A DNA stretch of 64,000 nucleotides. Source: a virus. How positions within the stretch are numbered: the first letter of the stretch is position 1; the number at the start of each line of letters is the position of its first letter. The translations under genes were made by a program, and so were the position numbers. The notes below the pieces were generated by a model that saw only the letters and a program-made list of their open reading frames with translations, did not search any database and was not told the origin of the DNA. Shown piece after piece: positions 3,652 through 47,732 of the stretch. The stretch lies in the IMG/VR virus record IMGVR_UViG_3300046616_000348, positions 1 through 64,000 of that record; one strand, 5' to 3'.

Positions 3652-5584
3652 CGCCTGGGGCGCAGCGAACCGCGTATACCCGCCCACCTCCGGCATGCCC
3701 GGCAAGCGCAATCCGAACGTTACGCCTTACATCATCGCGTTCGAGCGCGCCGTCGACGCCCGCACCCACAAGCGCGTGGTGCTGGTGATCTCGGCGCAGT
3801 CGGGCAAGTCCGAGGCGCTGCTCGACATCATCGGGCAGCGCATGGACACCTCGCCGATCCCGATGCTCTACCTCGGGCCGACCAAGCAGTTCATCACCGA
3901 GCAGTGGGAGCCCCGCGTAATGGAGCTCCTCGACGGCGCAAAGGTGCTGTCGAGCAAGGTGACGCGCGGCCGCACGATGAAGAAGACCATGAAGAAGATC
4001 GGCGGCGTGCCGCTGCGTCTTGCTCATGGCGGTTCGTCGTCCGCCCTGAAGTCCGACCCTTTCGGCCTCGCCCTCACGGACGAGGCGGACGAGCTCATGA
4101 GCAACGTCAAGGGCGCCGGTAACCCGATCGACCTCGTGGACATCCGCGGCGACACCTACGCCGACTTCGTCCACGCCATCGTGTCGACCCCCAGCGAGGG
4201 CCCGAACGAAGTGGAACGCGACCCCGAAAGCGGCCTCGAGTTCTGGCAGAGCGAGACGGCCGAAGAGGTCAAGTCGACCATCTGGCGGCTGTGGCTGTCG
4301 GGCACCCAGTATCACTGGGCGTGGCCGTGCCCGCACTGCGAGGACTATTTCATCCCGCGCTTCAAGGATCTCCGCTGGGAGAAGCCGACGAGCGACACCG
4401 GCAAGGAGATGCCCTCCGACCCGGTGATGGCGAAGCGGACCGCGCACCTGTCGTGCCCGTGCTGCGGCACGGACATCTACCAGCAGGAGCTGATCGGCAA
4501 CCAGAACACCAAGGAGTGGATGAACGAGCGCGGCGTCTTCGTCGCGCCCGGGCAGCACATCCTGCCGGATGGGACGGTGGTCGGCGACCCGCCGGAGCGA
4601 GAGACGATCTCGTTCTGGGTGTCGGGGCTGGCTTCGCCGTTCAAGTCCTGGGGCGATCGAGCCGAGCGGTATGTCACCGCTGTGCTCTCCCGCGACCCTG
4701 CCGCCATCCAGGCGGTGGTGAACGGCGGCTTCGGCGAACTCTACAGCCCGACCGGCGGCGTCGTCCCGGACTGGTCCGAGGTCGCGAAGCTCCGCTCCAA
4801 AGAATACGTCTCCGGCCAGGTGGTCGGCGGCGTGCGCATCCTGACCATGACGGTCGACGTGCAGAAGAACGGCATGTTCTACACCGTCCGAGGGTGGGGC
4901 GCTCGCGCTCGATCCTGGCTGGTTGAGGCCGGTTTCCTGCAGGGCGAGACGGCTGAAGAGGCCGTCTGGGATACGCTCGAGGGCATGATCTACGATACCT
5001 ACGACGGTATCCCCCTCCGGCTTGTCATCGTCGACGCCGGTTTCCGTCCGGGCAAGAAGGACGAGGTTCCTCTGAACCGCGTCTATGAGTTCGCCCGCAA
5101 GCACAAGCGCCTCGTCCGAGCGACGAAGGGTGCCTCCTCGGCGATGGTTCGCCCGATCGTCAGCTCGGCGATCGACGTGAACAAGAACGGCGAGGTCATC
5201 CCGAACGCGCTCGAGCTGTTCCGCCTCGACACCGACTATTTCAAGCGGTGGGTGCAGGAGCGGTTGCGGTGGGATCCCGAGCAGCCCGGTGGCTGGGCGC
5301 TGCCCGGCGACGTCAGCGATGACTACTGCCGGCAGATGGTCTCGGAAGCCCGCGTGAAGAACGCGAGCGGCAAGGCCGTCTGGATCCAGAAGTCGAAGGA
5401 CAACCACTACTTCGACTGCGAGGCGATGCAGGCGGCCGCGGCCACCATGCTCAACGTCATCAAGCTCCGCGAGGACGCTCCCGCCCCCGAACGGGGCGAG
5501 AAGCCCCAGCGGCGCACCACCGAAACCCAGCAGACCTCGACCAGTCGTTCCGACAGCTGGCTCGGGGGAGGGAGCATCTGGTAA
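3554..5584 (+). CDS. terL: terminase large subunit (GpA family)
   Basis: This is the ATP-driven DNA-packaging motor and nuclease. From the 3554 ATG the protein is 676 aa. Walker A is SAQSGKS (about 80-86), Walker B and catalytic acidic residues are in LALTDEADEL (about 172-181), and CPHC...CPCC (about 260-303) looks zinc-binding, as in lambda gpA relatives. The C-terminal nuclease shows acidic residues in TVDVQKNG (about 434) and VDAGFRPGK (about 494). The open frame reaches back to 3305, inside the small-subunit gene. ATGs at 3554, 3575 and 3641 are all possible; 3554 keeps the N-terminal segment usual for the family. Confidence 0.93.
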   Translation: MSEKSFPMVSAKSSELSARVCRLLKPPTRMTPDAWGAANRVYPPTSGMPGKRNPNVTPYIIAFERAVDARTHKRVVLVISAQSGKSEALLDIIGQRMDTSPIPMLYLGPTKQFITEQWEPRVMELLDGAKVLSSKVTRGRTMKKTMKKIGGVPLRLAHGGSSSALKSDPFGLALTDEADELMSNVKGAGNPIDLVDIRGDTYADFVHAIVSTPSEGPNEVERDPESGLEFWQSETAEEVKSTIWRLWLSGTQYHWAWPCPHCEDYFIPRFKDLRWEKPTSDTGKEMPSDPVMAKRTAHLSCPCCGTDIYQQELIGNQNTKEWMNERGVFVAPGQHILPDGTVVGDPPERETISFWVSGLASPFKSWGDRAERYVTAVLSRDPAAIQAVVNGGFGELYSPTGGVVPDWSEVAKLRSKEYVSGQVVGGVRILTMTVDVQKNGMFYTVRGWGARARSWLVEAGFLQGETAEEAVWDTLEGMIYDTYDGIPLRLVIVDAGFRPGKKDEVPLNRVYEFARKHKRLVRATKGASSAMVRPIVSSAIDVNKNGEVIPNALELFRLDTDYFKRWVQERLRWDPEQPGGWALPGDVSDDYCRQMVSEARVKNASGKAVWIQKSKDNHYFDCEAMQAAAATMLNVIKLREDAPAPERGEKPQRRTTETQQTSTSRSDSWLGGGSIW

Positions 5585-5796
5585 TGGACCCCGCAGAGAT
5601 GGCGGAGCTGCTGATCGAGCTCAAAAGGGCACGGTTCAGCGGCGCCCGTCGCATCAAGTTCCGGGAACGGGACGTCGAATACAAGTCCGACGCCGAGATG
5701 GCGAAGGCGATCAAGGCGCTCGAGGCGGAGATTGCCAAGGCGAGCCCGCTGCCCAGCTCCTCGCTGGCTGAGTTCGATGGAGGGTTCACCTCGTGA
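5584..5796 (+). CDS. head-tail joining protein (lambda gpW family)
   Basis: The 70-aa protein matches the short lambda gpW family, which plugs the portal after packaging and makes the tail-binding surface. The diagnostic stretch is YKSDAEMAKAIKALEAEIAK (about 37-56). The gene sits between the large terminase and the portal, as in lambda, and overlaps both: its ATG shares the terminase stop, and its stop overlaps the portal start. It is distinct from the P2 gpW-like baseplate gene at 12028. Confidence 0.88.
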   Translation: MDPAEMAELLIELKRARFSGARRIKFRERDVEYKSDAEMAKAIKALEAEIAKASPLPSSSLAEFDGGFTS

Positions 5797-37472: not shown

Positions 37473-38792
37473 TCACTCCGCCGCGGCCTTGAGGTCGGCG
37501 GCGACGAGCCGGCCGTCCTCGATGTAGAAGCCCACGTCGCCGGTCTCGTCGACCTCCTCGATCCAGAACTGCATGTCGTGCTTCTCAGCGAACTCGGCGA
37601 TCAGCTGGCGGGCCTGGCTGTCGAGGAGCGAGCCTTCGCGGATCTGGATCACCCGCAGCTTGGGATTGAGCGCCGAGGCGATCGCCACCGAGGCGGTGAT
37701 CTTCTGCGCCGTGGAGGCGCGGTCGAACGGGAGGCCGTCGAGCAGCACCGCGTCGTCCTCGAGCGTGAGCCCCTGGACAGGGATGTTGCTCGCGGCGATG
37801 GCCTTCTGCTGGTCGGCCTTGATGTCGTCGATCGCCTGGGTGAGGCCCTCGGACTTCTTGCGCAGCTCCTCCACCTCGCCGCGCAGGGCGGCACGCTGGC
37901 GGCGCTGGCGGATGTTCTGGCCGATCACCTCGTTCTGCCGACGGGCCTCGTCAATCTTCTCGCGCAGCTCGGACGTGTCCTTCGGGTTGGGCTGGGCGGG
38001 CATGTCCATCAGCGATGCCCGCATGCCCTTCACGTCGCGGTCGGCGGTGATGGCTTCTTGCTCCTTCGCCGCCGCCTGCTTCCGCAGCTCCTCGGCTTCA
38101 CGGTTCAGGCGCTCGACGTCGGCCTCGCGGGTGCTGATCTTGTCGCGGAGGGTCTGGTAGGCGTGGGTGGCTTCCTGGATCCTGGCGTTCTCGGCGCCGG
38201 CGGCTTCGAGCTCGGCAACCAGCGCCGCCTCGTCGATCAGTTCGCTCGGCACGCTGTCGTCGACAACGATGGCCTCGAGCTGCGCCTCGGACCGCTTCAG
38301 GTCACGATTGACGTCGGTGCGCTCGGCGTAGGCGTCCTTCCGGCGGGCCTCGGCGTCGTCGAAGTCGTAGTCGGGCACCAGCGGCTTCAGCAGGGCGAAC
38401 CGCTGCTCGGGCTTGGCCCGCACGAAGGTGAGCGGGTCGAAGGTGAGAGCGCCCATCAGGTCGTTCAGCACCGACTGCGGGTTCGCGTACTTCTTGCCGT
38501 CCTTCCCCTTGACCACGAGCATCTCGAGCGGCTCGTCGTTGTCGCGCTGCCGGATGATCTTCGTCACCTGCAGGTCGCCCAGGTCGACCTCGAGCAGTGC
38601 TTCCTTTTCGCCGAGATGGACCGGCGCCTCTGGGACGTACTTCTTGCCACCGAGCGCGGCCCAGATGGCGTCGAGCACCGAGCTCTTGCCTTGGCCGTTG
38701 GCGCCGGTGATGCGGATGACGTTGCCATCTGGCTGGATCTCGACCGCCTTAACGCGGGCGAAGCCCTCGACCTTGAGAGAGATGATCTTCAT
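37473..38792 (-). CDS. SMC/RecF-like AAA ATPase with central coiled coil
   Basis: The 439-aa protein has a RecF/SbcC-like head: MKIISLKVEGFARVKAVEI at the N-terminus and Walker A GANGQGKS (about 30-37). A long central coiled coil spans about 155-335 with Arg/Glu heptads. A C-terminal half-head follows with SAQKI-like FDRASTAQKITASVAIASAL and IQIREGSLLDS at the Walker B/D-loop position. The DE pair expected at Walker B reads RE, as I recall from related phage ATPases. A DNA-end processing role with the nucleases at 41.5-44.5 kb is likely. The start at 38792 follows from the conserved N-terminus. Confidence 0.8.
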   Translation of the reverse strand: MKIISLKVEGFARVKAVEIQPDGNVIRITGANGQGKSSVLDAIWAALGGKKYVPEAPVHLGEKEALLEVDLGDLQVTKIIRQRDNDEPLEMLVVKGKDGKKYANPQSVLNDLMGALTFDPLTFVRAKPEQRFALLKPLVPDYDFDDAEARRKDAYAERTDVNRDLKRSEAQLEAIVVDDSVPSELIDEAALVAELEAAGAENARIQEATHAYQTLRDKISTREADVERLNREAEELRKQAAAKEQEAITADRDVKGMRASLMDMPAQPNPKDTSELREKIDEARRQNEVIGQNIRQRRQRAALRGEVEELRKKSEGLTQAIDDIKADQQKAIAASNIPVQGLTLEDDAVLLDGLPFDRASTAQKITASVAIASALNPKLRVIQIREGSLLDSQARQLIAEFAEKHDMQFWIEEVDETGDVGFYIEDGRLVAADLKAAAE

Positions 38793-39453: not shown

Positions 39454-40569
39454 TCACATCACCACCGTGATGCTGTCGGCCGCCCGGGTGACGCCGGTGT
39501 AGAGCCACCGGGCCGGCTGCTCGCGGGCGACGAAGCTCTCGTCGAACAGGTAGACGCTGTCCCACTGCGAGCCCTGCGACTTGTGGACGGTCAGCGCGTA
39601 GCCGTAGGTGAACTCCTCGTACTTCTTGCGCTGCTGCCAGGTGAACTCCTCCTGGCGGTCCTCGAAGAAGGCGAGGTTGGTGTTCACGGTGGCCTTCGCC
39701 ACGCGGCGGCCTGCGTCCTCCGGGGAGAGCAGCAGGGTCATGTCCCCGCGCTTCGCCGGCGTGACGTTGTCGACGCTGAAGAGCATGCCGTTGAGCAGCT
39801 TCTTCGTGTTGTTGTTCTTTAGGCAGACGACCTTGTCGCCGCGCTCCGGCATCTGGCCCGTCCGCCCCTTCAGGGAGCGGATGCGGGTGTTGTAGGACTG
39901 CCGGGTCTTGTTGGTGCCGACGAGCACCTGGTCGGCGAGCAGGACTTCCTGCCGGTCGATGGCGTCGCGCCTGATCACCTTCGAGCTGCCGTAGGTGCCA
40001 TAGTCGAGCCCGCCACCCTCGCGGATGTCGATCGACATCTGGATGATCGGGCTGTCCTTTGCCTGCCGATGGATGTCGGTGAGCATGATGTCGGGGGTGT
40101 TCTCGGGCGCCGTGAAGAAGCCCGCGCCCTTAACCGGGGGCAGCTGGAAGGGATCGCCGAGGACCAGCACCTTCTTGCCGAAGGAGAGGAGGTCCATCGC
40201 GAGGGTGCTGTCGACCATCGACACTTCGTCGATGATGACGAGATCGGCAGCGCGCACCGCCGACTCGTCGTTCAGCAGCCACTTCGGCTCGCCGCCCTGC
40301 GACATCGGGCCATCGTCTTCCTGACGGTAGATCAGGCTGTGGATGGTCTGCGCGCCGGTGCACCCACGGCGGCGCATCACGAGCGCGGCCTTGCCGGTGA
40401 AGGCGGCGTATTCGACCTTGCCGGCGTCATCGGCGAGGTGCTTGGCGAGGGTGCTTTTGCCGGTGCCGGCCCAGCCGAACAACCGAAACACCTGGGAGGC
40501 GGATGGGTCCTTGAGCCACTTCGCAGCGGCGACGAGGGCGTCATCTTGTTGGGGCGACCACTTTGGCAT
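39454..40569 (-). CDS. SF1 DNA helicase (RecD/Dda-like)
   Basis: The 371-aa protein has the full SF1B set: Walker A GWAGTGKST (about 32-40), motif Ia AAFTGKAALVMRRRGC with TIHSLIY, Walker B VIIDEVSMVD, motif III LGDPFQLPPV, motif V/UvrD_C_2 LTVHKSQGSQWDSVYLF, and VI LYTGVTRA. Dda-type helicases drive recombination-dependent replication and remodel forks. It belongs to the leftward recombination block. Confidence 0.92.
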   Translation of the reverse strand: MPKWSPQQDDALVAAAKWLKDPSASQVFRLFGWAGTGKSTLAKHLADDAGKVEYAAFTGKAALVMRRRGCTGAQTIHSLIYRQEDDGPMSQGGEPKWLLNDESAVRAADLVIIDEVSMVDSTLAMDLLSFGKKVLVLGDPFQLPPVKGAGFFTAPENTPDIMLTDIHRQAKDSPIIQMSIDIREGGGLDYGTYGSSKVIRRDAIDRQEVLLADQVLVGTNKTRQSYNTRIRSLKGRTGQMPERGDKVVCLKNNNTKKLLNGMLFSVDNVTPAKRGDMTLLLSPEDAGRRVAKATVNTNLAFFEDRQEEFTWQQRKKYEEFTYGYALTVHKSQGSQWDSVYLFDESFVAREQPARWLYTGVTRAADSITVVM

Positions 40570-40812
40570 TTATGACCTCGGAAACATGGGGGCGAGCGCG
40601 TCGTCGATGACGGTCGCAACGAACTTCAGCTCTTCGTCGGACATCCCCTGGATCATCCGCGGAGTGACCGGCTGCAGGGCCACGGCGCGGTCCCCTGGAC
40701 GGCGGCGCTCGAGCCCTTTGTCGATTTCAAAGGCGTAGACGAACCCATCCGGAGAAGTGCTCACGGCGAAAATCCGATCGGTGTGATGGTGGGGGTGGCC
40801 GCGCCGTTGCAT
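40570..40812 (-). CDS. hypothetical protein, 80 aa
   Basis: The product has a His-rich N-terminus (MQRRGHPHHHTDRIFAVS) and a helical C-terminus (MIQGMSDEELKFVATVIDDA). No family is recognised. The start is weak: GAGGGC lies rather far upstream of 40812, and a later start would shorten it. It abuts the helicase gene. Confidence 0.45.
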   Translation of the reverse strand: MQRRGHPHHHTDRIFAVSTSPDGFVYAFEIDKGLERRRPGDRAVALQPVTPRMIQGMSDEELKFVATVIDDALAPMFPRS

Positions 40813-40873
40813 GCCGGCGCGGCCCTCGCAGCCGCTCTCCCGGGAGGAGGAAAGAGGCGGCTACGTCAGGAGC

Positions 40874-41194
40874 TTAAGCCTTGGGCTTGAAGCGCTCCCG
40901 GAACTCGTCGTCGGGTCGGGCGTATATCTTCCCACCCTCCTCGACATAGATGGTGAGCCGGTCGCCCTCTTTGATCGGCTGGGAGGTCTGGACCTCCACG
41001 CCGGTGTGCTTCACAGCGAAGTCACCGGGCCGGTGCACGTGATCAAACAATGGGAGGTCGTAGGCGTTGCGAAGAAGCTCAACCGCAGCGGCAAACACGT
41101 CCTGTGTGCCCTGGGTGAAGTAACGGCTCTTCGAATAGCCGGTCAGCTCTTCGATCACCCGTGACGTTGAAATCTCCAGCTTCCCCTCAGTCAT
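40874..41194 (-). CDS. hypothetical protein, 106 aa
   Basis: The product starts MTEGKLEISTSRVIEELTGY, has a helical core (TQDVFAAAVELLRNAYDLPL) and a β-rich region (GVEVQTSQPIKEGDRLTIYV). The ATG at 41194 overlaps the upstream gene's last codons through ATGACTGA. No known domain. It sits between the helicase and nuclease genes, so a DNA-metabolism accessory role is possible. Confidence 0.55.
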   Translation of the reverse strand: MTEGKLEISTSRVIEELTGYSKSRYFTQGTQDVFAAAVELLRNAYDLPLFDHVHRPGDFAVKHTGVEVQTSQPIKEGDRLTIYVEEGGKIYARPDDEFRERFKPKA

Positions 41195-41555
41195 TTTTTT
41201 GGAACCTTCTGTTCATCCGCGCCAAGCGCAAAACCTTGGCTGCCTCTTCAAAATTGCCGCTCACTGCATAGAGCAGCCGTGAAACTTTAACGGGATCGAC
41301 CGATTGTCGCTCCCAGAAGACCCGCTCGCTCATCGAATGTTGTTCGCGGTGCAGGTCGGGGTGGAGTGGAACCACGTATTCGTCATCGGGTTTTTCTCCC
41401 ATGCCGGTGGCCGGTTTGCCGTTCGCCAGATCCCCGTAGCGGATGTGGCAGGCCTCGACCGGGGTGCGTCCGGTGAGCAGGCACGGCAGGGTCCGGATGA
41501 ACTCCAAATGCCTATCGTCGCGAATGCGCGGTCGACGTTTTCCAATACCGGTCAT
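41187..41555 (-). CDS. DUF968-like putative HNH-type nuclease
   Basis: The 122-aa protein begins RDDRHLEFIRTLPCLLTGRT, then VEACHIRYGDL, GMGEKPDDEYVVPLHPDLHR and EQHSMSERVFW. The conserved Cys, ACHIR, PL...HREQH and F(W) elements are those of the DUF968 / P1 Ref-like recombination nucleases with a treble-clef metal fold. It lies between exonuclease and helicase genes and overlaps the exonuclease stop by 1 bp. Confidence 0.7.
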   Translation of the reverse strand: MTGIGKRRPRIRDDRHLEFIRTLPCLLTGRTPVEACHIRYGDLANGKPATGMGEKPDDEYVVPLHPDLHREQHSMSERVFWERQSVDPVKVSRLLYAVSGNFEEAAKVLRLARMNRRFQKND

Positions 41556-42259
41556 TAGAAACCCCGATCTGTGAGGTGCATCAGCGCAACCTCTCGGGTG
41601 TCCTGGTCGATCCGGTCAGCCTCGAAGGCCATCCATTTCAGGTAGTCGGTCGGGACGTCCGCCCAGCGGGCTCCCTTGTGCTTGTTGCCGAACTCGCATG
41701 TCGGCTGATGCACGGGCTGCGACGACCAGAGGAGCAGCTCCTCGAGCGTGACCTTGGCGAGCATCCGGACGAGGATGTGGGCGGTCACATGGACGTCGGC
41801 AGCGGCACGGTGGGGAGGCATAGACAGCACGGGGTCGACGGCAAGGCCGAGGTGATAACGGAGGCCCTGGTTCGAGTGCGTCGGCGCAGAGGGGATCATC
41901 CTCTTTGCGCATTTATATGAACACACCCACTGCGACCCCGGTGGGGTTTTAACGAAATGCATATCGAAGCGGCGGTTGTGGGAGGCGAAGACCGTTTCCG
42001 GTCCGCAGCCTTCAGTCGCAAACTCCACAACCGCCGCAGGCACGGGAGCCCCAAGCACGTCGGCATCCACAATGTGGTGGACGGCCGACGCCTGCGCCGG
42101 GATCGGGCAGCAGGGATTGGCGAGCATGGCCCGAGGAGCTGAGATCGTCAGCGTATTCAGGTCGATGTCGCACCACGCGGCCTCCACGAGCCGAGCCCCA
42201 GGATCGTCCTGGAAGCCGGTGGTTTCTGCGTCGATCACCCGCATTCGCGAGAAGGGCAT
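41555..42259 (-). CDS. DEDDh 3'-5' exonuclease with DUF3820-like C-terminus
   Basis: The 234-aa protein has the DnaQ-type motifs: Exo I VIDAETTG (about 9-15), Exo II ASHNRRFDMHFV (about 92-103) and Exo III HRAAADVHVTAHI (about 148-160). The C-terminal segment (FGNKHKGARWADVPTDYLKW) resembles the DUF3820 module attached to many phage exonucleases. It probably trims DNA ends in recombination or proofreads. Its promoter region (42260-42388) is AT-rich but no clear operator copy is seen there. Confidence 0.88.
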   Translation of the reverse strand: MPFSRMRVIDAETTGFQDDPGARLVEAAWCDIDLNTLTISAPRAMLANPCCPIPAQASAVHHIVDADVLGAPVPAAVVEFATEGCGPETVFASHNRRFDMHFVKTPPGSQWVCSYKCAKRMIPSAPTHSNQGLRYHLGLAVDPVLSMPPHRAAADVHVTAHILVRMLAKVTLEELLLWSSQPVHQPTCEFGNKHKGARWADVPTDYLKWMAFEADRIDQDTREVALMHLTDRGF

Positions 42260-42388
42260 TGGAGCACCCGATTTGACAAATTTTGGCGTTGGTTCCTCTG
42301 ATCGCCCACGAAAAACGTGAACGTCAGGAGAACATCGAGGAATGAATACCTATGCTTTAATGCACAAGTCTAGGGACAAATTCCTAGT

Positions 42389-43435
42389 TCATTCGTCATG
42401 GTAGCCGTTGAGCCAGACCTGCGCGGCCTGCTCGGACAGCCCCTCGGGAGGGGTCGGTTCGCCACCGGAAGCCTTGAACTGCTTGCCCTGCGAGAACAGC
42501 GCGTCGAGCTCTTCGTCGGTCAGCTTAGGCGTCTCGACGGTGCCGGTTTCCACAGACTTATCCCCAGCCGGAAGGGCGCCGCGCTTCGCGGCATCGCCCA
42601 GCGGATCGTAATCCTTGTCGACGGCCTTCTTGTCCGGGGCGAACATCTCCTCGACCGTCACCTCGCTGGAGCGCAGGCTCTGGAACATGCCCCGCAGGGT
42701 CACGAGGTTCTCAGCCGTCACCTGGGTCAGGCTGTCCACGCCGAGATGCTCGAGGAGCTGCTCGGGCTTCACGCCATAGATACCGAACGCCTTGACCGCG
42801 TCCTCGCGGCGCTGGGGCAGGGTATCGGCGTCGCCGGCGATCAGACGACGGGCAGCCTGGTAGGCCGGGCGATAGATGCTCCGGGGGATGCCGGCCAGGA
42901 TGGCATTGCGCTTGGCAATGGCGCACGCGGCGTTGCCGGTGACGATGATCATGTCGTCGGAGAAGATGCCGCCGCTCCTGGTCGAGATGCGCCTACGCAC
43001 CGTCGCCTTCGAGGCGGAGTTGGTCTCCAGGTCGAGGAACATGCCCTCGGCCTCGACGTACTTCTCGGCACGGTTGACCTCGACGATGTGCGCCTCGTAG
43101 CGGCAGTTGCCGTACTTCTGCGCGGCGATCTCAGCGAGACGGATGCTCGGCCCCTCGATCGCCTTGTTCTCCTCGTCGTCGCCACCGCTGCGCTTCTGGT
43201 TCTTCTTGCCGCGCACCAGAGCGTAGAGGCACTCGGCAGCAGCCTCCTCGTCGATCGTGGCGAGGGCCGTGATCTTGGCGATCACGGCGATCTCGTCGCG
43301 CGGGTGGGCACGGGCCGCGTCCAGCTGCATCTGCAGCGAGGAGGCCGAGACCAGCGCCGAGCCGGTTGGGCGATTGGCAGGCAAATTGGGTTCGCGCACC
43401 GGGACGATGTCCCGGCCTTCATCGTAGTCCTGCAT
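42389..43435 (-). CDS. candidate single-strand annealing / recombination protein
   Basis: The 348-aa protein has a conserved-looking core near residues 90-200: GPSIRLAEIAAQKYGNCRYE, then ATVRRRISTRSGGIFSDDMI and AKRNAILAGIPRSIYRPAYQ. The C-terminal third is acidic and probably disordered. It is encoded immediately downstream of a RecE-like exonuclease. In phages such a pair is usually exonuclease plus annealing protein, so I infer an annealase. It does not show RecT, Erf or Rad52 signatures, so the fold could be a less common type. The start at 43435 avoids overlap with the exonuclease gene. Confidence 0.55.
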   Translation of the reverse strand: MQDYDEGRDIVPVREPNLPANRPTGSALVSASSLQMQLDAARAHPRDEIAVIAKITALATIDEEAAAECLYALVRGKKNQKRSGGDDEENKAIEGPSIRLAEIAAQKYGNCRYEAHIVEVNRAEKYVEAEGMFLDLETNSASKATVRRRISTRSGGIFSDDMIIVTGNAACAIAKRNAILAGIPRSIYRPAYQAARRLIAGDADTLPQRREDAVKAFGIYGVKPEQLLEHLGVDSLTQVTAENLVTLRGMFQSLRSSEVTVEEMFAPDKKAVDKDYDPLGDAAKRGALPAGDKSVETGTVETPKLTDEELDALFSQGKQFKASGGEPTPPEGLSEQAAQVWLNGYHDE

Positions 43436-43445
43436 GGGGAGCCCC

Positions 43446-44510
43446 TTAGCTATAGATGCCGAAATTGGCGGGGAAATCGCTGTCGTCGAGCACGAGCACA
43501 TCGGGCTCGGGCATCCAGTCCTTGTCGTCGCCGAACTGCTGAACCATCGACTTGTAGATGTGGATGGCGTGCTCGATCTCGCGGGCTGCCGCCTCGAAGA
43601 CGTGCAGCTCGTCGGGGAACTCGACCAGGGTGGACGTCGGCGCACCGGTCGCTTTGACCATCAGCCAAAGCCACTGGATGTTGTCCTTCTGGAACAGCAG
43701 GTCGACGAAGTTGTCCGTCGGCGGCTCGCCGTGGATGGCGAGCTGGCCGGCGAAGTAGAGCTCACGGGCTCGGGCAAAGCCCTTGCGGTAGGCGGCCGAC
43801 TGCAGGTCGTACCGGAAATCGCGGATGGCCTTGATGACGTTCTTCCGCGTCTCGCGCGGCCGCCACGGGCGGTACGACTTCAGGTCGACGAACAGGCCGG
43901 GGTAGACGTAGTCGAAGCGGCACTTCAGGCGGACGCCGTCGTGCTCGTAGAACAGCGAGACTTCGGGCGAGCCGCCGTAGAAGGCGCCGTCGTCCATCAC
44001 GCCGGCGAGCTTCTGGTGCCGGGTCATCCACTCGATCGCGAGCTGGATCTCCTTCGCCATCTTCGCGGTGATGCCGGTGACGCCTTCGGTGAGGCTATCC
44101 TCGAACTGCTGCTTGATCACGTCCCAGATCGGCTGGGTGGCGTCGGCCTCGCGGATCAGCTTCACGCGATCGGCCTTCGTCTTCGTGCCGCGGGTGCTGA
44201 CGCCGTTCTCGGCCAGCCACAGCTTCACGTCCTTGTCGGTGACGATCAGGTTCTTGAAGGTCTTCGGATCGGGGGCGACGCGGTACTTTGCGTCGAACAC
44301 CTCGCGGCCCTCGAGGGTGCGGGCATGGAATGCCGAGCCCCAAGTCTTCTCGTAGCTCTCGGTTTCCTCGGCTGGGTAAAGCCGGTCGAACTGGAACTGG
44401 ATCGGGTCGTTGAAAACGGCCTTGAGGCCGGTCGACCCGAGTGCTGGGTCAGCATGGTAGACGTCGTCAGGAAGGCCGAAATGAAGGCCCAATGGGAGAA
44501 GGTTTGCCAA
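43446..44510 (-). CDS. PD-(D/E)XK exonuclease (RecE/exonuclease VIII-like, DUF3799 type)
   Basis: The 354-aa protein opens with FGLPDDVYHADPALGSTGLK, the typical start of DUF3799 nucleases. WGSAFHARTLEG carries the conserved His. The catalytic core is SPEVSLFYEHDGVRLKCRFD then YVYPGLFVDLKSYRP, giving the E...D...DxK constellation. It should make 3' overhangs for the annealing protein encoded next. It is the first gene of the leftward early operon, directly after the operator-rich region 44540-44633. Confidence 0.88.
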   Translation of the reverse strand: MANLLPLGLHFGLPDDVYHADPALGSTGLKAVFNDPIQFQFDRLYPAEETESYEKTWGSAFHARTLEGREVFDAKYRVAPDPKTFKNLIVTDKDVKLWLAENGVSTRGTKTKADRVKLIREADATQPIWDVIKQQFEDSLTEGVTGITAKMAKEIQLAIEWMTRHQKLAGVMDDGAFYGGSPEVSLFYEHDGVRLKCRFDYVYPGLFVDLKSYRPWRPRETRKNVIKAIRDFRYDLQSAAYRKGFARARELYFAGQLAIHGEPPTDNFVDLLFQKDNIQWLWLMVKATGAPTSTLVEFPDELHVFEAAAREIEHAIHIYKSMVQQFGDDKDWMPEPDVLVLDDSDFPANFGIYS

Positions 44511-44774: not shown

Positions 44775-45416
44775 CTACAGCGCGCGATAAAGCGCCTCGA
44801 CTTGCCCGAGCAAGCGGCCATCTTCACCCAGCGACACGCCGTCAATCTCAGCGTTGCTGGAGCGCAGCACAAGTGTCCAAGAACCTTCGACCTGGACGCA
44901 CTGCGCCGGGACTAGTTGTCGCAGCTGTCCGCCGAACCCTGTGCGTTCGCAGATGCAGAGCGTATTGGGGGCAGCTTCCTCGACCTCTCGCACCAGCAGG
45001 TAGTCACCTGCGGAGTAGTTGGCCCAGTCCGTGTCCTCCGAGACGCCTACAGCAAACCAGTTCGCATCGGGCCCGCCGGCCACGACGGTGATCTGCAACG
45101 AATCTGCAACAGCGGCATGGATGTCTATGGGCTTCCGTTCCTCCCAGTGGGTGAGGGATATGGTTCCCACCACCGGAGTGCCCCGCATCCCGTCGGACTT
45201 GGGCACTAGGTCGCCCGTCCCGGTGAGTAGCCACTCGAGGGAGACGGCGAATCGTTTGGCGTAAATGGTTGCGTCTTCAACAGAAAATGCCCGGCCACCG
45301 TTTTCGTGGGCGGAATATGTCGGCACTGAAACGCCTAAACGGCGTGCCGCTGCGGATGCAGATGTGAAGCCCGCTGCAATGCGAGCCTGCCTAAGTCTTT
45401 GAGCGCGTTGAGGCAT
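44775..45416 (-). CDS. cI: CI-type repressor with degenerate S24/LexA-like C-terminus
   Basis: The 213-aa protein has an N-terminal XRE helix-turn-helix (RIAAGFTSASAAARRLGVSV, about 11-30; the next residues PTYSAHENGG complete it). The C-terminal domain resembles LexA/CI dimerisation domains (NWFAVGVSEDTDWANYSAGD then YLLVREVEE). The usual catalytic GDSM..P is replaced by GVSEDTDW and no clear partner Lys is visible, so self-cleavage is uncertain. AGAGGATC precedes the ATG. It probably keeps lysogeny by binding the operators at 44540-44633, 45458-45498, 35204-35220 and 189-205. Confidence 0.85.
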   Translation of the reverse strand: MPQRAQRLRQARIAAGFTSASAAARRLGVSVPTYSAHENGGRAFSVEDATIYAKRFAVSLEWLLTGTGDLVPKSDGMRGTPVVGTISLTHWEERKPIDIHAAVADSLQITVVAGGPDANWFAVGVSEDTDWANYSAGDYLLVREVEEAAPNTLCICERTGFGGQLRQLVPAQCVQVEGSWTLVLRSSNAEIDGVSLGEDGRLLGQVEALYRAL

Positions 45417-45500: not shown

Positions 45501-45509
45501 TTTGGTTGC
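45481..45509 (-). promoter_or_regulatory. repressor maintenance promoter (pRM-like)
   Basis: On the minus strand a good -10, TATAAA (45486-45481), lies inside the OR2 repeat with a poor -35 (GCAACC at 45509-45504). The repressor ATG is about 65 bp further. A strong -10 with weak -35 is typical for a promoter needing activation or giving low constant expression. Confidence 0.4.
45482..45498. promoter_or_regulatory. operator OR2
   Basis: TTATACGTTGCGAATAA, inverted, is TTATTCGCAACGTATAA, one base different from the left-end operator at 189-205. It lies in the spacer of the rightward promoter and covers the leftward -10 box. Confidence 0.7.
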
Positions 45510-45531
45510 ATCCGAACCGGAGAAATACCTC

Positions 45532-45768
45532 GTGACAAACGAAACTCAGACACTGGGAACGCGGATTAGGACCGCCCGCCAGGGTCTCGGTTGGGGGCAG
45601 GTGGATCTCGCCAAGCATGTCGGCGTGACCCAGGCGACCGTTTCCCGCATCGAGAGCGGCGGCAAGTTCTCGACGTTGGTGGGTCGCGCATTCGAGACGT
45701 TCCTTGCTGACGCTGCATCTGGGGCGATCGCTCCGGCTGCGGAGCCGGCGCCTGCCAACCCCTCCTGA
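45532..45768 (+). CDS. cro: Cro-like XRE regulator
   Basis: The 78-aa protein is an XRE helix-turn-helix (TRIRTARQGLGWGQVDLAKH, then GVTQATVSRIESGGKF) with an Ala/Pro-rich tail. It is divergent to the repressor, the standard cI/cro layout. A GTG at 45532 is preceded by GGAG (9 nt), so it is preferred over the TTG at 45502, which would put coding sequence close behind the operator. It probably binds the same operators and shuts off repressor synthesis. Confidence 0.82.
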   Translation: MTNETQTLGTRIRTARQGLGWGQVDLAKHVGVTQATVSRIESGGKFSTLVGRAFETFLADAASGAIAPAAEPAPANPS

Positions 45769-46698: not shown

Positions 46699-47253
46699 AT
46701 GGCTCTCAGGCTGCTCGCGATCGACGCGGCCTCAAAGTTCGGATGGGCCTTCGGGCCCACCGACGGAATGCCCCTCTCGGGTCACGGGCGATTTGCCAGT
46801 GAGGGAGCGGAGCACGAGGCCTACTTCGCCGGCGCATGGCGCTGGATGCATCAAGCAATCAAGGACTGGGACCCCGAGGCGATCGCCATCGAAGCCCCTA
46901 TCCATCCCGGCACGAAGACGACGGTTCACACCATCGAGCTCCTCAATGGGATCCAAGCGAACCTCCGATCGGCCGCCCGGCTCAACAACCGATACCGGGT
47001 CCAGATCATCCACCAGGGGAAGGTGCGAACCTTCTTCATTCCGCAGCCGAAGCTGAAGCGTGGCGAGAAACGGCCCCGCCTCACCGGCGACCAGATGAAG
47101 CTCCTGTCGCGCAAGCGCTGCATCGAGCTGGGGTTCGTGGACGACAAGGTCCGCAGCCTCGACCAAACCGACGCCTTGGCCGTGTGGGCCTGGGCCGTCT
47201 CCTTCTACGACCCGGAGAACGCCAAGCGCTTCTCCCAACAACTGGCGGCATAG
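46699..47253 (+). CDS. RuvC-like Holliday junction resolvase
   Basis: The 184-aa protein has the RNase H-fold resolvase layout: first Asp in [16 protein letters not shown], Glu in [12 protein letters not shown] (about residue 55-60) and the late Asp pair in [15 protein letters not shown]. These four acids coordinate metal in RuvC-type nucleases. It probably debranches recombination intermediates before packaging. It follows the DUF2312-like gene by 2 bp and precedes ssb. Confidence 0.85.
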
Positions 47254-47255
47254 CA

Positions 47256-47732
47256 ATGGCGGGCAGCGTCAACAAAGTGATCATCGTCGGCAACCTCGGG
47301 CAGGATCCCGAGGTGAAGACCCTTCAGGCCGGCGGCAAGGTGGTGAACCTGTCGATCGCCACGTCGGAGAGCTGGCGCGACAAAAACACCGGCGAGCGCC
47401 GGGAGAAGACCGAGTGGCACCGGATCGTCATCTGGAGCGAGGGTCTCGTGAAGGTGGCCGAGCAGTACCTGAAGAAGGGCGCGAAGGTCTACATCGAGGG
47501 CCAGCTCGAGACCCGCAAGTGGCAGGATCAGGGCGGAAACGACCGCTACAGCACCGAGATCGTCCTCAAGGGCTTCGGCGCCACCCTGACCATGTTGGAC
47601 GGCGCACGCGACGGTGACGGCAACCGTGGCAGCAATGACCGCCAGAGCGACAATCGCGGCAACGGTGGCGGCCGTAGCCAGCAGTCGCAGCCGGCGTTCC
47701 AGGGCGGCATGGACGATGACATTCCGTTCTGA
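47256..47732 (+). CDS. ssb: single-stranded DNA-binding protein
   Basis: The 158-aa protein is a bacterial-type [23 protein letters not shown], then [20 protein letters not shown] and [20 protein letters not shown] form the OB fold. A Gly/Asn/Gln-rich linker leads to the acidic tip GGMDDDIPF, which recruits partner proteins. The ATG at 47256 is the true start; the long frame upstream (from 46836) is a shadow of the RuvC-like gene. Confidence 0.95.

Follow-up and report, generated by a model that had tools for sequence, protein, structure and literature searches.

A predicted single-strand annealing protein of the PHROG 3657 family in a phage recombination module

Organization of the recombination module

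The analysed window comprises 64 kb of a 74.8-kb virus record and carries, on its minus strand, a recombination module in which the gene of a RecE-type exonuclease is followed by that of a 348-aa protein and then by genes coding for two further nucleases and a helicase. The order DUF3799 exonuclease, 348-aa protein, DEDDh exonuclease, DUF968-like nuclease, and SF1 helicase was given in a preliminary description made from the sequence alone, and it stands, as all these ORFs were found on the minus strand at the coordinates listed below. The features of the module and of its surroundings are as follows.

43446..44510, minus strand: RecE-like 5'–3' exonuclease, DUF3799, PD-(D/E)XK fold (Pfam DUF3799, E=3.9e-10)
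42389..43435, minus strand: 348-aa predicted single-strand annealing protein (SSAP), PHROG 3657 core at residues 32–274 (PHROG 3657, E=1.9e-42)
42824..43306, minus strand: core domain of the predicted SSAP, residues 44–204 (AlphaFold2 mean pLDDT 90.3, pTM 0.82 for the isolated core)
42392..42550, minus strand: C-terminal tail of the predicted SSAP, by eye similar to the Rmf/CrpP-like mini-domain of several close relatives (shared pattern ...G...A...G.......AWL.GYD)
41555..42259, minus strand: DEDDh exonuclease, ExoX-like (Pfam RNase_T, E=6e-13; best NCBIfam match ExoX, exodeoxyribonuclease X, E=1.6e-28)
41187..41555, minus strand: HNH endonuclease, DUF968-like (PHROG 96 HNH, E=2e-5)
40874..41194, minus strand: 106-aa ORF, the first of two small ORFs separating the HNH and helicase genes, conserved in a Devosia relative
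40570..40812, minus strand: 80-aa ORF, the second of these two, conserved in the Devosia relative
39454..40569, minus strand: SF1 helicase, Dda/RecD2-like (PHROG 325, E=2.2e-99; Pfam AAA_30 and UvrD_C_2)
37473..38792, minus strand: SbcC/RecF-like ATPase, PHROG 1499 (E=8e-95)
47256..47732, plus strand: phage single-strand binding protein (SSB) with the C-terminal tail DDDIPF, in a divergent operon (Pfam SSB, E=1.1e-36)

The G+C content at the third codon position of the minus frames is 0.67–0.93, while the overlapping plus-strand ORFs display a shadow pattern; the minus-strand genes are therefore regarded as real. The exonuclease, the predicted partner of the annealase, also matches PHROG 412, exonuclease VIII (E=2.1e-40), and its TTG start codon is uncertain; the gene of the 348-aa protein starts with ATG. 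The HNH protein scores 27.5 bits with Pfam DUF968, slightly below the cut-off of 27.8. The 106-aa and 80-aa ORFs were absent from the earlier gene list. A locus in a Devosia metagenome-assembled genome has the genes for the exonuclease, the 348-aa protein, the DEDDh and HNH nucleases, the 106-aa and 80-aa products, the helicase, and an SbcC-like protein in this order, which is wholly kept with respect to the window, and the respective proteins are 60–90% identical. A 5'–3' exonuclease gene adjoining an annealase gene is the hallmark of a RecET/Red-type module, and such a pair, with the 348-aa protein taken as the annealase, is present both in the window and in its relatives.

The PHROG 3657 family and its nuclease partners

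The 348-aa protein has no match in Pfam or NCBIfam even at E≤1, which agrees with the earlier remark that it bears no RecT, Erf, or Rad52 signature. The RecT profile PF03837 matched neither the protein itself (E≤1) nor nine aligned family members nor the phage record; the Pfam profiles of Erf (PF04404), Rad52 (PF04098), and Sak3 (PF06378) did not match the protein either, unlike the Rad52/Sak, Erf, and Sak3 proteins proper, and the RecA-like P-loop ATPase domain of Sak4 (PF13479) was not found in it. Since the Pfam profiles of RecT, Erf, Rad52, and Sak4 have no match elsewhere in the phage record, the annealase position is otherwise vacant. An HMM of the family gave E>1 with RecT, Bet, Sak, and Sak3, i.e., the core has no sequence similarity to these accepted SSAP families, and hhalign detected nothing in a comparison with small alignments of RecT and Erf, a result that is uninformative owing to the thin profiles and some mispicked ORFs. 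Neither PF03837 nor the small profile comparison picks up the 348-aa protein, which differs in this from RecT and Red-beta. Matches of the 348-aa protein to PDB sequences, such as a short one to an RNA-editing helical-repeat protein, were rejected as spurious.

The profile of PHROG 3657, a group of "unknown function", matches all 37 aligned family sequences. Its relatives occur on at least 587 confirmed viral contigs (one pattern scan) and also in phages and prophages of Pseudomonadota, Bacteroidota, Bacillota, and actinobacteria. The hosts of these phages or prophages include Devosia, Methylobacterium, Mesorhizobium, Acinetobacter, Aeromonas, Bordetella, and Sutterella, as well as Bacteroidales, Blautia, Anoxybacillus, Gordonia, Mycobacterium, and Microcystis. 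Among 150 Pseudomonadota genomes drawn, the PHROG 3657 core was found in two besides the centre genome, Pfam RecT in five, and Pfam ERF in five; the centre genome has a PHROG 3657 member and no match to the Pfam RecT and ERF profiles. Annotated relatives are mostly labelled "hypothetical" and some of the actinophage ones "RecT-like", the latter a label which may rest on shared tails rather than on the core. A search of the open-access literature yielded no paper naming PHROG 3657, separating it as an SSAP family, or testing its members.

The protein of the window belongs to a subgroup found in alphaproteobacterial, Microcystis, and related phages, which has an Rmf/CrpP-like tail and, in common with the Devosia relative, an insertion of ca. 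13 residues in the core hairpin. The actinophage "RecT-like" proteins gp57 of Mycobacterium phage Sparky and gp54 of Gordonia phage Mutzi are members of the same PHROG 3657 family (E from 1e-42 to 1e-113), and the window subgroup differs from the actinophage members in this insertion and tail.

The neighbourhood of the gene was surveyed by taking the adjoining ORF at 43 loci, mostly with less than 85% protein identity between them. A RecE-type nuclease, YqaJ or DUF3799, occupies the sampled position in 34–35 of the 43 loci (23 YqaJ and 12 DUF3799 by Pfam; 23 and 11 by our own HMM grouping). In an independent set of bacterial genomes from several phyla, YqaJ or DUF3799 is encoded in all 15 loci, nearly always directly next to the PHROG 3657 gene. 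The pairing of one family with two nuclease families is as expected for an annealase, and genes of the RecT/Red-beta family (PF03837; RecT of the E. coli Rac prophage, Bet of lambda) similarly lie beside those of RecE, YqaJ, or DUF3799 nucleases. For SSAPs of the Rad52/Sak, Erf, and Sak3 types, on the other hand, the usual neighbour in Firmicutes phages is an SSB gene (PMC8093625); PHROG 3657 genes adjoin an exonuclease gene instead.

In Acinetobacter phages, the place after the annealase gene where the nuclease gene is expected is taken by a gene coding for a 219-aa protein (positions 4936–5592 of locus L022). This product has no match in Pfam and may be an unrecognised nuclease.

Predicted fold of the core and the C-terminal tails

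The AlphaFold2 model of the 348-aa protein, built with 37 family sequences, has a pLDDT of 80 over its full length and mostly above 90 in the core. The core consists of a hairpin (strands 70–73 and 93–96), a helix (98–108), three strands (111–121, 126–135, and 140–149), and a second, long helix (160–182). The Rad52 superfamily is defined by a core in which a beta-hairpin is followed by a bridging helix, a three-stranded sheet, and a helix (PMC11783212); the confident model of the 348-aa protein predicts this order of elements, a likeness which it would share with RecT and Red-beta. Positions R46, R75, R99, R176, and R255 are basic in all 37 sequences, and D135, E137, and N139, located in the turn joining the second and third strands of the sheet, are invariant in them. 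In the model, R75 is placed at the hairpin and R99 in the helix following it, and we propose that the two would lie close to the DNA-contacting elements of known SSAPs.

A structure comparison with SSAPs, envisaged in the preliminary description, gave a divided outcome. In the viral structure library BFVD, two RecT-family proteins and one Rad52/59/22 protein were matched at E<1e-3, and Sak3, Bet, and Erf at E from 0.0016 to 0.03, so that the Rad52/Sak, Erf, and Sak3 types are all represented; nearly all named phage proteins among the top 50 matches are SSAPs, and nearly all the others are unnamed. The PDB matches, on the other side, are not significant. The first one for the full model is the Sak SSAP of phage 80-alpha (8qe9, E=0.025). 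For the isolated core, the best TM-score among the matches listed belongs to lambda Red-beta (7ujl; 0.44 both ways over 139 columns, E=0.06), which in the ranking by E-value stands below unrelated partial matches, with unrelated hydroxymethylbilane synthases first. As Foldseek is reported not to connect even accepted SSAP families to each other (PMC11783212), the weak PDB score of the core is to be expected and does not constitute proof.

The C-terminal tail of the window protein itself has no database match, and NCBIfam Rmf_CrpP matches the tails of two close relatives (best E=7.3e-6). An Rmf/CrpP-like mini-domain, resembling ribosome modulation factor, ends several annealases of the window subgroup (L003, L012, L015, L017, L019, and L020).

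Mycobacteriophages provide a link between the PHROG 3657 and RecT families. The gp65 protein of Mycobacterium phage TootsiePop (L205), encoded after a DUF3799 nuclease, has a PHROG 3657-family core (E=4e-48), and gp51 of Butters (L225), encoded after a YqaJ nuclease, is a Pfam RecT protein (E=1.3e-38); their 60-aa C-termini are 72% identical, and their cores display no similarity. Butters gp51, which has the tail alone in common, was ruled out as a PHROG 3657-family member. Among mycobacteriophages, 184 records contain this tail, and most of the proteins bearing it are labelled RecT-like. As the tails behind them are shared, the cores of PHROG 3657 and of RecT are considered to fill the same slot. 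Mycobacteriophage Che9c is the source of a known recombineering pair. A second type of tail is found in Sparky gp57, prophiGD44-1 gp12, and Mutzi gp54, which match PHROG 4171 "RecT-like" at profile positions 231–381. Such PHROG RecT-like matches of the relatives are located, where resolved, in the C-terminal tail, and they were accordingly rejected as a sign of core homology and discarded as evidence for a RecT core.

These data bear on the classification of the 348-aa protein. Its being a very divergent member of the RecT/Red-beta family (PF03837), which is a question of classification only and compatible with an annealase function, would suit the RecT-family proteins as the best named viral fold matches, Red-beta as the holder of the best PDB TM-score, and the RecT-like annotation of some relatives; we nevertheless consider it rather unlikely, as PF03837 matches none of the Pfam-scanned family members, the family HMM finds RecT at E>1 only, the RecT-like PHROG matches fall on the tail, and the fold matches include Rad52, Sak3, and Erf too. 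We rate the 348-aa protein as a new sequence family, to be placed by sequence outside RecT, Erf, Sak3, Rad52, and Sak4. Going one step further, we are inclined to regard PHROG 3657 as a sixth, unnamed annealase family of the Rad52 superfamily, the other five being RecT, Red-beta, Erf, Sak3, and Rad52; it would be widespread in phages whose hosts range from Alphaproteobacteria to Actinobacteria and Bacillota, with two exonuclease partners, tail swaps with RecT, and an Rmf/CrpP-like tail in the window subgroup.

Proposed function and accessory genes

The 348-aa protein is, with high probability, a phage SSAP, the equivalent of RecT/Red-beta in a two-component recombination module. This reading is based on the nuclease context, the predicted fold, and the C-terminal tail common with RecT. 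Computation directly yielded the order of the genes, the family of the protein, its predicted fold, and its conserved association with RecE-type nucleases, and the context of the homologs, the fold, and the RecT-type tail all back the assignment of the annealase role, which had earlier been deduced from gene order. The suggestion that the protein is an uncharacterised SSAP is thus upheld as a probable one, but the protein does not stand alone, since it belongs to the widespread PHROG 3657 with some actinophage members labelled "RecT-like"; these labels already hinted at an annealase, and the idea is not wholly new.

In the proposed mechanism, the DUF3799 exonuclease would resect a double-strand end in the 5' to 3' direction, and the 348-aa protein, presumably as an oligomer, would bind and coat the exposed 3' strand and anneal it with the complementary strand by means of its Rad52-superfamily core, while contacts with partners would be made by the C-terminal tail. 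Replication and the processing of intermediates would be supported by the phage SSB, the ExoX-like exonuclease, the HNH nuclease, and the SF1 helicase.

A constant nuclease neighbourhood would suit any partner protein, and the 348-aa protein could in principle assist the exonuclease as a subunit or a loader, for instance as a recombination mediator or as a cofactor that binds ssDNA, rather than being an annealase. The weak PDB fold scores are in line with such a role, as is the SSB which the phage already encodes. We deem it very improbable, however, because the family, like RecT, partners both YqaJ and DUF3799 nucleases, its core takes the place of that of RecT ahead of a common C-terminal tail, the viral fold matches are SSAPs, and the phage record yielded no further SSAP. 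A DNA-binding protein with another function, in replication or regulation, hitch-hiking with recombination genes, is less probable still: the "hypothetical" label of most annotated relatives would fit it, but the same neighbour recurs across diverse phages and bacterial phyla, and the tail swap with RecT and the SSAP fold matches speak against it.

The annealase reading has several consequences. Although members of PHROG 3657 are common, no function is assigned to them in Pfam, NCBIfam, or PHROGs, and naming the family would provide annotation for hundreds of phage recombination modules together. Its members are candidates for the annealase in oligonucleotide recombineering of alphaproteobacteria and of further hosts in which lambda Red performs poorly. 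With the cores exchanged and the RecT tail conserved, nature provides an experiment separating the DNA-pairing part from the part that would contact host or phage partners; TootsiePop gp65 and Butters gp51, i.e., unrelated core families on one tail, form a natural chimera suitable for testing the function of the tail.

Several genes surrounding the module deserve mention. The PHROG 1499 ATPase, labelled in PHROGs as of unknown function, recurs by the PHROG 3657 annealase in unrelated phages (L001, L002, and L008, and also L006, where the match to PHROG 1499 is weaker); it may belong to the recombination module. In the divergent operon (46699–47732, plus strand), the SSB gene is preceded by that of a 184-aa protein with no match in Pfam, which by eye looks like a resolvase of the RuvC/RNase H fold; both genes are kept in the Devosia locus (L188). 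Immediately upstream of the recombination module lies a divergent, CI/Cro-like pair of HTH regulators (44775–45416, minus strand, and 45502–45768, plus strand), which suggests a temperate phage.
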